44,435 nt of DNA from an uncultured Flammeovirgaceae bacterium. GTDB taxonomy: Bacteria; Bacteroidota; Bacteroidia; Cytophagales; Cyclobacteriaceae. A program made the translations under genes and the position numbers. Below, one piece after another: positions 1 through 44,435 of the stretch. The notes under the pieces were generated by a model that worked only from the letters and a program-made list of their open reading frames with translations, made no database searches and had not been told where the DNA came from. The DNA lies in contig CAKZYA010000010.1 of assembly GCA_937883755.1 (NCBI GenBank), positions 1 through 44,435 of the forward strand, given 5' to 3'. Each line of letters opens with the position of its first letter. Position 1 is the stretch's first letter.

Positions 1-49
1 AACTACAACTGGAAATCTCTAATTACTAATGTTCCTAACTAAGGGAAGC

Positions 50-658
50 TTACACTATCCACCAATCAAAAGCTTCTATATCTTTTGAGTATCTAAAATT
101 TATAAGGTCAATACAGTAGTCAATGAGGTAATCGTCATAAATTAAATCAAAAGCTTCATCTATAAGAGTATCATAATTTGTTGTAATGACTCCAATTTTC
201 TGATTGTTATCCTTTATTGATTGCCAAAATTCTCTAAAGCATACACTTTTTTCTGTTTTGCTACTGATTATGTAATGCAGAATTTTAGTGAGGTCAGTTT
301 TTAATTTTATTAATTCCGTGACTGCCCATTTTCTTGAGAGGCTGTAGTCATTATTTATATGGAAGTCAATAAATCCAAATACTTCTTCTAAAGTTGGAAA
401 TTGAGAATTTATCGAGAAATTTTCTCCTAGAAATTCTCTTATTTTCTTTCCAATCTCAGATTTCAATATTTGCAAATCACCTCTTTGAAACAGTAGCGGA
501 ATAATTTCCGATTGAATGGGTATACCATCTGGATAAGATGTGCCTGCCCCAAAGATGAATACATTTTCAGGTTTATCATTCTGTTCAGGCAGTATGATAT
601 TACTATCTGGATATGCCTTTTTGAAACTTTCTATGTAATCAATATTAGGATTCACCAT
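50..658 (-). pseudogene. SIR2-like domain protein, C-terminally truncated
   Basis: The 202-residue product carries the nucleotide-binding start of a SIR2-like (SIR2_2 type) fold: GAGTS at residues 37-41 and the ITTNYD motif with Asn161. SIR2 domains of this type in bacterial defence proteins are NAD-consuming enzymes; their catalytic His lies in a later LHG-type motif. Here the frame stops after residue 202 (DWWIV), before any such motif, and none of the three minus-strand frames in bases 1-49 restores one. The piece therefore looks like a 5' remnant of a longer gene, or one cut by a rearrangement near the window edge. It is visibly AT-richer than the genes to its right. The ATG at 658 is the natural start. 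SIR2 identity is fairly sure; loss of activity is inference. Confidence 0.7.
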
Positions 659-38732: not shown

Positions 38733-40739
38733 ATGGTGAACTCAAATCTACTATCCCAGCTTCCCTTTTTTAAGGATATACCATTGGTAGTAATACACCG
38801 ATTGGCCGAGGTAGGAAAAAAGATCACCATTGAACCCAATACCTCTATTGTACATCAGCACGACGAAGCCCGGTTTGTCTTCTTTCTGCTTTCCGGGGCA
38901 GTGCAGTTACATCTCCAGACTGGAGAGTTAGATGATGTCTTGGTGGGAGTTATGAAAACCCCGGGTGCTCTAATTGGTTGGTCAGCGTTTCGTTTTCCTT
39001 ATCGATATACTACCACGGTAACTACTGAGGAAGAGAGTCTTTTAGTTCAGTTACCCCGGCAGGCTTTTGATGAAATATTTCGTACCTATCCACTAGTCGG
39101 ATACGAGATCTTAAAGCGGATTAACACTACCGTGGCCAATCGCCTGGAACAGGTTCGGGATCATTTGCTTACTGCCAGCCAAGCTAGCACTCATACCCCA
39201 ATAGCCCACCCTCAGGAAAAATCAACTGACCTATTGACGCTTTCGGATGAGATCATACAGGATCCGATTACCTTATTGCAGCATTCCTCCTTTTTTCACC
39301 CTTTTAAGCTAGCGTATTTACAAGATTTAGCTCAAGCTGTAACCATTGAGGGGTTTGCGAAGGGAGCTACTGTTTTTCAGGAAAAAGATACTGCTGACAA
39401 TCTATATCTACTGGTGAAAGGAGAAGTAATGTTGTCGGTACAGTCTATGTTCGAAGCATCTGAAGATCGAAGGACAAAAGAAGGCGAGGTACGGATATAT
39501 GCGATCAATAAAGCGGGACACCTGATAGGATGGTCGGCACTGGTGCCTCCTTATCATTATCGGGCAACGGCAACGGCCACCCAGGAAACCCAAATATTGG
39601 CAATACCAAAGGAGGCATTGGAGAAAGAAGCCTTAGAACATCCTAGTTTTGGCATCTTTTTGATGCAGCGTATTTTATGGGTTATTGGCAATCGCCTGCG
39701 GGCTACTCGCGTGAGGCTTATTGCCCAGCGTTACGATAAAATCACCGTAGCCATTCGTTCCCTATTGGATCAGAGTGCGGAGCAACTAAGTGTGACTTCT
39801 CCGCTGCACAAAATTCCGCACTATCTGGCGAATCGCCTCACGTTGCACGATGCATTTATTACTCTAAAAACATTAGAGGCACACGGGGATGAAACCGAGC
39901 AGCATTTAGCGAAGGTATGTCTGGAACTACTGACAGAGGTAAAACAAGAGCTGCGGATTTACCAACAACTACAAAAAATATACGAAACCGTAGCCAATGC
40001 TCCGAAAACAATGATTCCTCCCCAAATTAGGAGTAACTGTTGTTCCGCGTTTATCAAACTGTTCGAAGGCACAAATTATATCATCCGGGGCGAAGAGAAT
40101 TTGCCCGACCAGCCCGGTCATATTTTTATTATGAACCATTTGTTTAATCATCCAGAAAATACGCTGCCCAATGATTTTCAACTAACCTTAGATTCTCATT
40201 TTGTGTCTTCTATGATTATCTACAAAAAGTATGGAACAGCTCCGGTACGGGTTATTCGCAAGTCTCGTCCAGATGAATATGGACACCAACGGTACTACGA
40301 TCAACTGGGCTATATCTACGTGTATTCAGGGCATGTAGACGAATCGGTTTACGAACCTCAGCATACGGCGGCAGAAAGACGGAAGTATTTTCTTGATCAG
40401 GCTCGAGACTTGTTGCTGAATGGGGAGAACATTGTGATTTGTCCGGAAGGGAAAAATGTAGCGACAGAAGACTCACCTCAGCCATTTAAAGCCGGGGCTT
40501 TTCGCTTAGCTGCCTACGTTCATCCTGAACCGATGATTGTACCCATTGCGGTAGCTAATTTTGATAAAAAGCTCACCCGCACTACTACCGCCGCTATTGT
40601 GTATCCTCCCTTCTATTTATCCGACTACGTGCCGAAGCCAGTGGAAGACCAGGTGTTGTTTGATTTCATTAATAGTTATCAGAAACGGTATCAAGAGTAT
40701 GTAAAGGAAGCGATTTCTTTAACTAAAAATATTACATAA
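38733..40739 (+). CDS. Double cyclic-nucleotide-binding domain fused to acyltransferase
   Basis: The 668-residue protein has two CRP-like cNMP-binding domains (about 10-145 and 175-330; both contain LxGWSAxxxPYxYxxT near the phosphate-binding turn). A helical linker follows, then a PlsC-like acyltransferase domain (about 435-640). The PlsC motifs are unusual: the His of motif I is in FIMNHLFNHPEN with no Asp four residues later, the next candidate being Asp in TLDSHFVSS, while motif III is CPEGKN instead of FPEGTR. The two cNMP domains lack an obvious canonical RxA-type cAMP pocket. A role in ligand-regulated phospholipid acylation is inferred. The gene stands alone. Confidence 0.82.
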   Translation: MVNSNLLSQLPFFKDIPLVVIHRLAEVGKKITIEPNTSIVHQHDEARFVFFLLSGAVQLHLQTGELDDVLVGVMKTPGALIGWSAFRFPYRYTTTVTTEEESLLVQLPRQAFDEIFRTYPLVGYEILKRINTTVANRLEQVRDHLLTASQASTHTPIAHPQEKSTDLLTLSDEIIQDPITLLQHSSFFHPFKLAYLQDLAQAVTIEGFAKGATVFQEKDTADNLYLLVKGEVMLSVQSMFEASEDRRTKEGEVRIYAINKAGHLIGWSALVPPYHYRATATATQETQILAIPKEALEKEALEHPSFGIFLMQRILWVIGNRLRATRVRLIAQRYDKITVAIRSLLDQSAEQLSVTSPLHKIPHYLANRLTLHDAFITLKTLEAHGDETEQHLAKVCLELLTEVKQELRIYQQLQKIYETVANAPKTMIPPQIRSNCCSAFIKLFEGTNYIIRGEENLPDQPGHIFIMNHLFNHPENTLPNDFQLTLDSHFVSSMIIYKKYGTAPVRVIRKSRPDEYGHQRYYDQLGYIYVYSGHVDESVYEPQHTAAERRKYFLDQARDLLLNGENIVICPEGKNVATEDSPQPFKAGAFRLAAYVHPEPMIVPIAVANFDKKLTRTTTAAIVYPPFYLSDYVPKPVEDQVLFDFINSYQKRYQEYVKEAISLTKNIT

Positions 40740-40842
40740 GCTGGTTTGCTTCTTTTTGAATATGAAACATGAATTGGAAATTATCTATGGTAGATTACGA
40801 AAGTCTGATTTTCTGCACCTCAGCCCTTAGGTCGGGCAGGCC

Positions 40843-41052
40843 CATACTTTTTCCATCGATGAAAAAGTATGTCCAGCGTGGAACGCAAAAAATCTAGGAA
40901 ACCTTGAAATCGCACCGGCGACCCGCCGCGTCCACGGTGGATCGCTACGCTCAGACAGCAAGCTTTCCCTTTAATTTATAGATGAAAATGCTTTCTTAAC
41001 GTCATTACGAGCGTTCCACGCTGGACGAGGAACGAGCGAAGTAATCTTCCCC
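40843..41052. repeat. Compound palindromic repeat with inverted 16-mers
   Basis: CATACTTTTT and AAAAAGTATG (40843-40871) form a 10-bp stem. Directly after it GTCCAGCGTGGAACGC (40871-40886) is matched perfectly and inversely by GCGTTCCACGCTGGAC (41011-41026). The second copy lies inside a copy of the GTCATTACGA...GAGGAACGAGCGAAGTAATCTTCC repeat (41001-41050), as if inserted. A related element, GCGTCCACGGTGGAT, is at 40928-40942. Confidence 0.6.
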
Positions 41053-41093
41053 ACTCTACCACAAAGCTACTTTCAAACGAAAAACCCTGAATA

Positions 41094-41228
41094 AGCTTCA
41101 TATACAACTGGAATAAACTGAGAAACTGTATAGTGGCTTCATTTACCTTTGCTACGGAAATAGGAAAGCTATTAAAGCTCAATACGGGACTATAATGAAA
41201 ATAAAAGTTGTATATGAGCTTCATATAC
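41094..41228. repeat. Short direct and inverted repeat pair
   Basis: AGCTTCATATAC occurs directly at 41094-41105 and 41217-41228. The first copy, extended as AGCTTCATATACAACT (41094-41109), is also met inverted at 41206-41220 with one base missing. Spacing of about 100 bp and terminal inversion give a miniature-element look, without any gene inside. Confidence 0.4.
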
Positions 41229-41562
41229 CACATCTACCGAAGTTTTTGTACTAAACGCGCTTCATTTACGACTACTATTTTTGAAAAAGTTCGAGAGTAA
41301 CTTCGTATGCCATAGATAATTTGGTGGGAGTAATAAATGAAGCGCATATGGCTTTATAACTTTTATTGTAATGGCATTTGAACGGTTACTCGTCTTAGAA
41401 TTTTTTAATAACTTCCATATAGCCCTGATTTGTTATTGGTTTTATAAGAGAAGTACTATTCACACTTTCTTGGCTTAAAGTAAGAATTTTAAAGGTTTAG
41501 TCTTGGCATTCTGCGCTGGTCAACATATTAAACCTTCGAGTAGTATTTAGATTAGGAGTTAG

Positions 41563-42918
41563 CTAATACAACACTCCTTTTTCTTTCATCTCTTCGTGTA
41601 TTTTAATTAGTGGGGCTAATTCTTGGTAAGCTTTCTGAAGCTTTGCTTTTCGCTCATCAATATCAAAAGGAATTACTCCTCCTGGAATTAATTCACTCCA
41701 GCGTTTGGCAAGCCTGCTATTTACCGGACTTTTCCATTCCTTCTGGTCAACAAATAGCTCAACTATAATGCCCTCATTAAGCTTTGGTATGGTTTCAATA
41801 TTTATTTGTGATGGCGGACATTCGGGAAGTATGAATACACAATATTTGTCATTATCCATTTCCTGTTGCCAATTTTGACTTACGGATGCATATCTTTTAA
41901 TATCCTCCTCTAATTGCGCATCAGATGCTAGTTTTGATCTATTATGTCGTATGTCATTAACTATTGTATTCCTTCGAGAAATCCACTGACTCTGGTTTAA
42001 GATTTTTCCCTGAAATTCTTTAGGAAGGATAATACGAGCACTTAAAAGTTTTTCGCAACCAAAACTACTTTTAGAGTAAAAATTATGTTCACGTAAGTCA
42101 AAATCTTTATTTACAGAATCACAGTATAAAGATAAACTCAGAACATTGAAAAGCCTTAATTCATTTTCAGAAATATCAAAATTAAAGTAATGACTTGGGG
42201 AGACTCCTTCTATTTTGTTAAAATAAACATGTCTCATGTGCTTGGCAATAAACAATGGTCTTTCAGCAGAGATGATGTTGTTAAATTGATAAAGTTTGTT
42301 CCTACCTTGAAACAGAAAAAGACAGGATGAATATGTCTGCGATATATTAGAGTCTACTACTGATAAACCACTTTGCAACATCCTAAATTGGTAAATATCT
42401 ATGCCAAAGGATCTAGCATGATATTTTACGCCTGGATGCTCTGGTATTTTAAAGGGTTTTAGCTTTGCATGAAAGGAAGGGCAACGAATTATCAAATACG
42501 CAATATAGTCGTCGATAATATTTTTCAAGAGTTTTTTTTCAAAAGGATAGTATTTTTCAGTAATGTCTGTCCGTTTTAAATTTAATGGGAAACTTCCGTC
42601 AGGATCTTGAATACATATTTTAGGGTGGTATATACTATGAAATGATTCATTATAAGTATTCTCGGAATCTATGTAAGCAGTAGTGGCAGAATTTACTAAA
42701 CTAGTTGAGAACTGTTTCCTATGAATAGAATCTGTAATGCGAATGCCGTTCACTGTTAGTAAGGGAATTGGTTTAGAGTGAAATGACCAAAATATATCAT
42801 AAGTCTCTGTAGGAAAAGAAAGATACCTCCAATGCTGCGGGGTATTAAATTCGTTTAATTGTATTTTTTTGTTTTTAATAAGCCTGTTTTTTTCTACCCC
42901 TACCTGTATGACTACTAG
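41563..42918 (-). CDS. C-terminal half of HD-GHKL ATPase, frame-shifted from the rest
   Basis: The only start codon in this frame is GTG 42753, which would give 396 residues. Yet the same frame is open from 42939, and its codons between 42918 and 42754 read sensibly (LVVIQVGVEKN, TPQHWRYLSF, PLLTVNGIRI). The sequence after NGIRI (YHPKICIQDPDGSFPLNLKR, then YPFEKKLLKNIIDDYIAYLI) fits the region that follows the GHKL domain in long HD-GHKL proteins. I therefore read it as the second half of the upstream ATPase, disconnected by one base at 42918-42922. On its own I recognise no catalytic motif. The family match is from memory of the protein pattern, not a search. Confidence 0.65.
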   Translation of the reverse strand, partial: LVVIQVGVEKNRLIKNKKIQLNEFNTPQHWRYLSFPTETYDIFWSFHSKPIPLLTVNGIRITDSIHRKQFSTSLVNSATTAYIDSENTYNESFHSIYHPKICIQDPDGSFPLNLKRTDITEKYYPFEKKLLKNIIDDYIAYLIIRCPSFHAKLKPFKIPEHPGVKYHARSFGIDIYQFRMLQSGLSVVDSNISQTYSSCLFLFQGRNKLYQFNNIISAERPLFIAKHMRHVYFNKIEGVSPSHYFNFDISENELRLFNVLSLSLYCDSVNKDFDLREHNFYSKSSFGCEKLLSARIILPKEFQGKILNQSQWISRRNTIVNDIRHNRSKLASDAQLEEDIKRYASVSQNWQQEMDNDKYCVFILPECPPSQINIETIPKLNEGIIVELFVDQKEWKSPVNSRLAKRWSELIPGGVIPFDIDERKAKLQKAYQELAPLIKIHEEMKEKGVLY

Positions 42919-42923
42919 GGGGC
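42915..42923 (-). other. Frame-change site in C5 run
   Basis: The coding strand reads CAA-GCC-CCC-TAG-TAG here. One extra C (six instead of five) would give CAA-GCC-CCC-CTA-GTA and join the upstream ATPase to the downstream frame. A -1 slip of the tRNA on CCC, just before the TAG stop, would do the same. Confidence 0.6.
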
Positions 42924-44435
42924 TTGGTACACAAACCAGTCAAGTTTAAAGGGTACATTTCTTCTACTATTGTTTTTCCTTGGTATTTCTAATTTATTCT
43001 TAGTATTATTAGATATTAATATTCTTATTATAGTTCCTACTGCGAGACTGCTATCATACTTTAATTCAATCGCACTGAAGTCTCGAGCAGTTTTAAATCT
43101 GATTCCCTTTTCACTCTTTATATATCTAGTAGAAATTTCCATCTCTTCACCAAGCAGAAAACCCGCAAGAACTCCTATTCCAAAGCGACCTGATCGTAGG
43201 ACTTGAGAAGCAGGTCTCTCATTAGTCTCGAATTCTTTTTTCCAAGCGTCACTATTTCGAAAAGATGCTCCAGCAGTCAAAAAATAATCTCGGATAATAT
43301 CTACTGTCATTCCTACTCCTCTATCGCTAATTGTTAACCAAGCAAACCCACTTTCATCAGGATCATCTAACCAAATAACTACATCACCTTCTTGCTCGAT
43401 TAATGGTGCATTTTGCAATTCTGGATACTTTTCTTGAAGAATCCAACGCTCGCGCACTGCATCAATAGCATTTTGCATCAATTCTCTAATCCCAATTTCA
43501 GGTTTATTATGGTAGAGGGGGCGAACAAGTAATTTTAACAAATCGGAACCAGCAACGCCTAATTCTATTTTTTCTGGCACATAGTCTACTTGCTTAGAAA
43601 ATATCTTAACATTATCTAGATTTGAGCGAACTCTTCTGATGATTAGGCCTAGCTTAGAAAGCTTATCATGTGATCCATACACTTCACCCAGTACCGCCCA
43701 AGATTTATCCAGTTCATCTTGGATTCCAGCTAACCAGTCCTTTAACCGTAAGAACGTTTTTACATCTTCCGGTCGGGCCTGAATTTCAATAGATTCAGGA
43801 TCATTATGAGTTTGGGTTATATTCTTTACTGCATTATGAGCTTTCCATTCTTGCACAGAAATCTCACTAGGTATATGACGATATTCAAAGGCTATTGCCG
43901 GTGCGCGGTCGGCTTGAATCTGAAGATAATCAGCAATACGCAACAGTGTCATCAAATACACTGCGTGAATTCCCTTATATTCCCTATGATGATACCAATT
44001 TAAGTATTCTAAACAACGCCGTAACGGTAAACCGTGACTTCTGGCAACTAGTCCACTAATATCTCGGATATCCTTATCTCCCTGGATAGTAATCACTTCG
44101 TCATTGGGACCGGGCACACCGTATAAGGCAAACTCATGAGCCATACGGGGATGGTGTCGGCGAATAAACTCACCTATCAGCTTTCGATCCGTTTCGGTTA
44201 GATTATCGAAATGCTCAAAAGGGTCGCGCACTAATGCTTTAGGCTTTCCATCTATTTCGCCAAAAATTTCAATAAGCTTTCTGTCATCCCATCGATTAGC
44301 AGAAAAGAGAAAGTCGTCCCAAAGTTTATTCCAAGGTATATCTTTGAATCCCCTAGTAGTCCGAGAGGAAGCATGACCTTGTATTAGAGCATGTTTAAAT
44401 TTTGAAAAGAGCAGGTCAGCTTGTAAACTTTGGGT
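42915..44435 (-). CDS. HD-domain and Hsp90-like (GHKL) ATPase protein, 5' partial
   Basis: The frame is open to the window edge, so the true start lies beyond 44435; the GTG at 44231 is not needed as a start. At least 506 residues are seen here. An HD-like region is encoded at about 44170-43900 (RRHHPRMAHEFALYG, GLVARSHG, LLRIADYLQ). A GHKL ATP-binding domain follows at about 43500-43000: N-box RELMQNAIDAVRER (Asn near 43470), SDRGVGM, the glycine box GRFGIGVLAG. That is the fold of Hsp90, MutL and histidine kinases. HD proteins cut phosphate bonds in nucleotides. The combined role is unknown. It stops early at 42915 owing to a frame change. Confidence 0.8.
   Translation of the reverse strand, partial: TQSLQADLLFSKFKHALIQGHASSRTTRGFKDIPWNKLWDDFLFSANRWDDRKLIEIFGEIDGKPKALVRDPFEHFDNLTETDRKLIGEFIRRHHPRMAHEFALYGVPGPNDEVITIQGDKDIRDISGLVARSHGLPLRRCLEYLNWYHHREYKGIHAVYLMTLLRIADYLQIQADRAPAIAFEYRHIPSEISVQEWKAHNAVKNITQTHNDPESIEIQARPEDVKTFLRLKDWLAGIQDELDKSWAVLGEVYGSHDKLSKLGLIIRRVRSNLDNVKIFSKQVDYVPEKIELGVAGSDLLKLLVRPLYHNKPEIGIRELMQNAIDAVRERWILQEKYPELQNAPLIEQEGDVVIWLDDPDESGFAWLTISDRGVGMTVDIIRDYFLTAGASFRNSDAWKKEFETNERPASQVLRSGRFGIGVLAGFLLGEEMEISTRYIKSEKGIRFKTARDFSAIELKYDSSLAVGTIIRILISNNTKNKLEIPRKNNSRRNVPFKLDWFVYQAP

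Follow-up and report, generated by a model that had tools for sequence, protein, structure and literature searches.

The two neighboring minus-strand frames at the end of the window, by which we mean the whole stretch of 44435 bases analyzed here, derive from a single gene for a large Hsp90-like ATPase that has been disrupted at two points: at its front, where it meets the end of an insertion sequence (IS), and in its middle, where the frame changes by one base. The window is the complete contig C10; its genome comprises 7.6 Mb in 75 contigs and is rated 99.28% complete. We hold it to be, with a probability of about 0.85, a recently inactivated pseudogene of an HD-CE/GHKL ATPase that normally has ~920-1070 residues, lying at a site where different strains carry different anti-phage genes. 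In outline, the gene would have been gained horizontally and its product would have acted in defence, with Hsp90-like, ATP-driven clamping controlling the HD phosphohydrolase and C-terminal parts; it would have decayed by the one-base frame change, and its front would have been lost or separated at the IS. The features of the locus are collected in Table 1.

Table 1. Features of the broken ATPase gene and its surroundings, in window coordinates
Feature	Position	Strand	Evidence
Flank common to congener G002, inner edge of the variable site	41084..41513	.	blastn 72% over 435 bp to L097 14045-14474
Native part of frame B, covering the C-terminal third to half of the gene	41563..42918	-	family profile
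C5 run and TAG stop, one-base frame change	42915..42922	-	read from the sequence
Frame A, native part: rest of HD-CE and GHKL (Hsp90-like) ATPase domain	42918..44386	-	Pfam, family profile, four ATPase motif matches
TAA triplet, probable target-site repeat	44384..44386	-	C58 has the same triplet next to its IS end; the IS1031 group targets TNA
Left end of an IS5-family insertion sequence (probably IS1031-like), where the contig stops	44387..44435	+	recurrence in the genome; complete copies; transposase

Frame A is open from the contig end at 44435 to the TAG at 42915-42917, which, as the sequence-only reading had seen, comes right after the C5 run at 42918-42922; its first 17 codons are derived wholly or partly from the IS, and native coding starts at ~44386. 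Frame B is open from 42939 to its stop at 41563, the first listed start codon within it being the GTG at 42753. The GC contents of the two frames are 39.5% (A) and 33.5% (B) versus 44.5% for window 1001-40739. Apart from the junction, no stop interrupts the 489 codons of frame A or the 458 of frame B, which points to young decay or possibly to an error at the frame change.

Frame A matches the Pfam HD-CE family (PF24391; 2.2e-29, 103.4 bits against a cut-off of 27), with only the later part of the domain being present (profile positions 90-263 of 263 in one search and 74-263 in another), and it scores 24.5 bits, just under the cut-off of 25, with HATPase_c_3 (PF13589), an HSP90-type ATPase domain. 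The GHKL ATPase motifs N box, G1, G2 and a GT are all found in frame A. Both Pfam domains occur in the same order in all six intact relatives tested; the window copy differs in lacking the first part of HD-CE and in being split by the frame change. That first part holds the HD metal motif (DHGxxH, LLHD), which is invariant in five relatives and absent from frame A. As the front of the gene with this motif is missing, the window holds a remnant and not a working member of the HD-CE/GHKL family. The ATPase domain resembles that of HtpG/Hsp90 (NCBIfam PRK14083, 1.7e-17, but 63 bits against a cut-off of 455), and among proteins of solved structure the family profile matches endoplasmin (1.7e-16) and HtpG (3.8e-15), mainly over profile positions 378-600. 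The relatives of the window gene are set apart from HtpG/Hsp90 by the HD-CE domain in front and by a C-terminal part that looks unrelated. In frame B no Pfam family scores above its cut-off, and AlphaFold2 gave no usable model of the intact relative L032 from eight alignment rows (mean pLDDT 39.3).

That the two frames belong together is best seen with a family profile, which we built from eight unbroken relatives (L032, L033, L039, L040 and L085-L088), each carrying both parts in one open frame of 921-1066 amino acids. Frame A matches this profile over positions 132-619 (E 1.9e-151) and frame B over positions 615-1026 (E 2.7e-24, 81 bits; the best of 1,000 shuffles reached 4.1 bits), so that the two matches are co-linear and meet at the C run. 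In the alignment, 'LDWFVYQAP' of frame A and 'LVVIQVGVEK' of frame B stand opposite continuous family sequence, e.g. 'IDWFCWDWPKVIKRVIR'. On sequence comparison, the two frames are hence consecutive parts of one HD-CE/GHKL gene. The suggestion, made from the sequence alone, that they form a single gene is borne out by these matches, and the test that could have refuted it turned out in its favor, the eight relatives having both parts in one open frame. In the window no single open frame runs through to the C-terminal part, as frame A stops at its TAG and the remainder lies in another frame. Speaking against the join, frame B used alone matched only itself at E <= 0.001 in 98 genomes and missed G005 and G087, which hold the gene; its kinship is visible only in profile searches or in searches confined to the loci of relatives. 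The C-terminal part thus appears to be fast-evolving.

The front of the gene is cut at the contig end. The window copy begins at alignment column 112, after ~100-110 residues of the relatives, and the last 49 bases of the window (44387-44435) occur at ten places in the genome, namely the window and nine others, six of these nine being contig ends. Two complete copies of the element, of 865 and 880 bp, are each flanked by TAA on both sides, and the copy on contig C59 has 14-base inverted ends and a single transposase frame of 274 codons, of the IS4/5 type (DUF4096 5.1e-21, DDE_Tnp_1 5.6e-14). The triplet outside the element is TNA at all ten left ends, and a TNA target is described for the IS1031 group of the IS5 family in the accessible text of PMC12016507. 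As far as that text goes, ISLrh of the IS1031 group is like our element in its size of ~860-880 bp, its inverted ends and its TNA target repeated on both sides, and differs in having two overlapping transposase frames rather than the one frame of the C59 copy. By size, target and transposase, the element at the window end belongs to the IS5 family and is probably IS1031-like. Three further matches with three mismatches were rejected as IS ends, since a reversed control pattern also gave three. A shortened copy (L011 2835-3000; G000:C23:174833) has the left end and the transposase start, followed by other sequence.

A search of the genome for the missing front found only the window's own overlap. 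With the alignment as query, the best match in the genome was a different HD protein (E 0.65); this search overlooked even the short stretch in which the window overlaps the front, so its sensitivity is limited. Nor did the C58 tail match the front. The idea that the front adjoins another IS end was rejected after fourteen such stretches, at 13 contig ends and one internal copy, were set against the corresponding region of five relatives: the matches were at chance level (best E 0.043), and the best did not border on the residue expected there. An unassembled part of the genome may contain the front. Because it is cut off, joining the two frames would not restore a whole gene. The sequence-only reading, in which a repair of the frame unites an HD-GHKL gene, accordingly holds as to the single gene; it fails as to the whole, the HD metal motif being absent.

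The rival readings concern the cause of the frame change. The foremost, though unlikely, is that it is a sequencing or assembly error, in which case the gene would only be cut in front by the IS or, should the contig end be misleading, would be whole. In its favor, no other stop breaks either frame, and a single base, within a homopolymer, is affected. Against it, at 13 of 14 contig ends the IS bases present and the flank letters common to another end add up to 55, and the fourteenth (C26) would fit 55 with one unseen contig; the contig ends thus fit a k=55 short-read assembly graph. Short reads seldom misread a five-base run, and with such an assembly a misread C run is less likely. Moreover, searches of a genome of this completeness did not recover the front, so that the gene is cut in any case. 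A much less probable reading, one of those offered from the sequence alone, takes the C run for a contingency locus with reversible switching. The frame does change exactly at the run; however, the window contains 30 C or G runs of at least five, up to nine long, among which a C5 is unremarkable, and with the front cut off at the IS end a frame switch would not yield a whole protein. A search for the junction pattern found it in nine of the ten relatives examined (in all but L085), and at this point none of these nine shows a C5 run or a stop codon. The same comparison leaves hardly any room for programmed -1 recoding with two products, one short and one long, which had also been proposed: by reasoning from the sequence, re-pairing of a proline codon one base back, ahead of the stop, is conceivable, but these relatives have no C run and continue in one frame, the RNA 3' of the run folds like its shuffles (z 0.08 against 200 shuffles, folded without pseudoknots), and the fused product would lack the front of the protein. 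We thus prefer inactivation of the gene, of which frame A may still give a shortened, ATPase-only product.

The surroundings of the pseudogene were compared with those in congeners. In G002 a single contig holds DNA like window 40140-41513 together with DNA like the end of our contig C58, in fitting orientation. C58 also ends in the same IS, and since both contigs map to one contig of G002 they are probably neighbors joined by the element. A TAA precedes the IS at the end of C58, and C10 resumes with TAA after it, a pattern expected of an ordinary insertion; given TNA targets, this agreement is likely by chance. At the corresponding site G002 encodes Drt3a and Drt3b (1e-117 and 2.8e-202; L097 10586-13963, G002:C55), which are the catalogued defence pair DRT3. 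The comparison rests on this one congener, as the G001 contig holds one flank only and the flanking gene gave no match in G003. The opposite end of the window (1-658) is also a repeat end, with bases 1-54 or so recurring in C35, C68 and C18; the minus-strand frame there (53-658) has a low GC content and weak matches to SIR2 defence proteins (5.4e-8), ends at this repeat, and may be a second defence-like gene cut by a repeat. The only other HD-CE match in the genome is a protein of 344 amino acids without the ATPase part; by eye its gene stands in a row (L020 331-5048; G000:C23) with apparent DNA methyltransferase and ATPase genes, possibly a further defence locus.

Among named genomes, searches with part A recovered seven loci, of which four are close. 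In 98 related genomes it found a match in 92, with E below 1e-90 only in G005 and G087 besides its own genome; the remaining matches range from 3e-17 down and mostly cover the ATPase domain. At E <= 1e-40 the family profile detected members in 10 of 395 genomes of the phylum, our own included. Relatives were found in a Bacteroidota lineage, in green sulfur bacteria and in a planctomycete bin. Chlorobaculum thiosulfatiphilum has a named intact copy. Eight stretches of viral contigs matched a pattern, none of them being a relative, and a plasmid search with the L032 protein returned two records with partial, weak matches. We count 12 close loci, namely the window, L032 (the same as G117), L031 (the same as G411), L033, L034, L039 (G005), L040 (G087), G462, G145, G279, G337 and G403; L032 and G117, and L031 and G411, were equated because each pair has a common 1,000-base core. 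Eight of the 12 are unbroken and four are broken. Besides the window, these are L031, with a DDE_5 transposase between codons ~896 and 908 of a relative; G403, cut near codon 196 with a DDE_Tnp_1 transposase adjoining; and L034, from a metagenome bin, whose one-base frame break may be an error. L035-L037, L041 and L042 were too distant to be counted; G284, unbroken but also more distant, was likewise omitted and would make the count four of 13. The interruptions by transposase genes, in two genomes other than our own, lie at L031 7000-8283 and L089 6033-6833.

Several of the relatives stand beside known or candidate defence genes. The G145 gene is preceded by PDC-M28A, B and C and followed by an HNH gene, and in G279 the preceding genes are like those of G145 in starts and sizes, a likeness judged by start and size alone. 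The L031 copy lies downstream of a HEC-02B match, and that in L033 faces AbiD and a type ISP gene. At L040 a phage integrase adjoins the gene and a PDC-S73 match follows ~5 kb on (L074 6599-18001; G087:C1), so that this locus is possibly a mobile defence island. By eye, the neighbors of L032 look like housekeeping genes, with no defence context. PADLOC 2.0 has no family for the two intact proteins tested, L086 and L087, and frame A reached only 21 bits, with a restriction enzyme model. Among the matches listed in a literature search under the HD-CE name, no title has the domain as its subject. According to the accessible text of PMC12137116, the GHKL ATPase of the Shedu protein VcSduA has been proposed to control an effector domain, which is where the likeness to our family lies; there the GHKL domain is N-terminal and the effector is a PD-(D/E)xK nuclease, whereas in the family of the window gene HD-CE stands in front and the C-terminal part has no name. 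With modest confidence, and from the neighbors, we suggest a role in defence for the family, in which the Hsp90-like clamp would control the HD part.

The window locus by itself matters little, as the gene is most likely dead, and there is no case here for pursuing recoding of an Hsp90-like ATPase. More tentatively, and short of an even chance in our estimate, the large HD-CE/GHKL proteins could constitute an uncatalogued anti-phage system, an Hsp90-like clamp on an HD phosphohydrolase that would be costly and repeatedly broken, often by insertion sequences. The family is the better lead: it has several intact relatives beside known or candidate defence genes and no PADLOC model for the two members tested, and a third of its close loci are broken, as a raw proportion.
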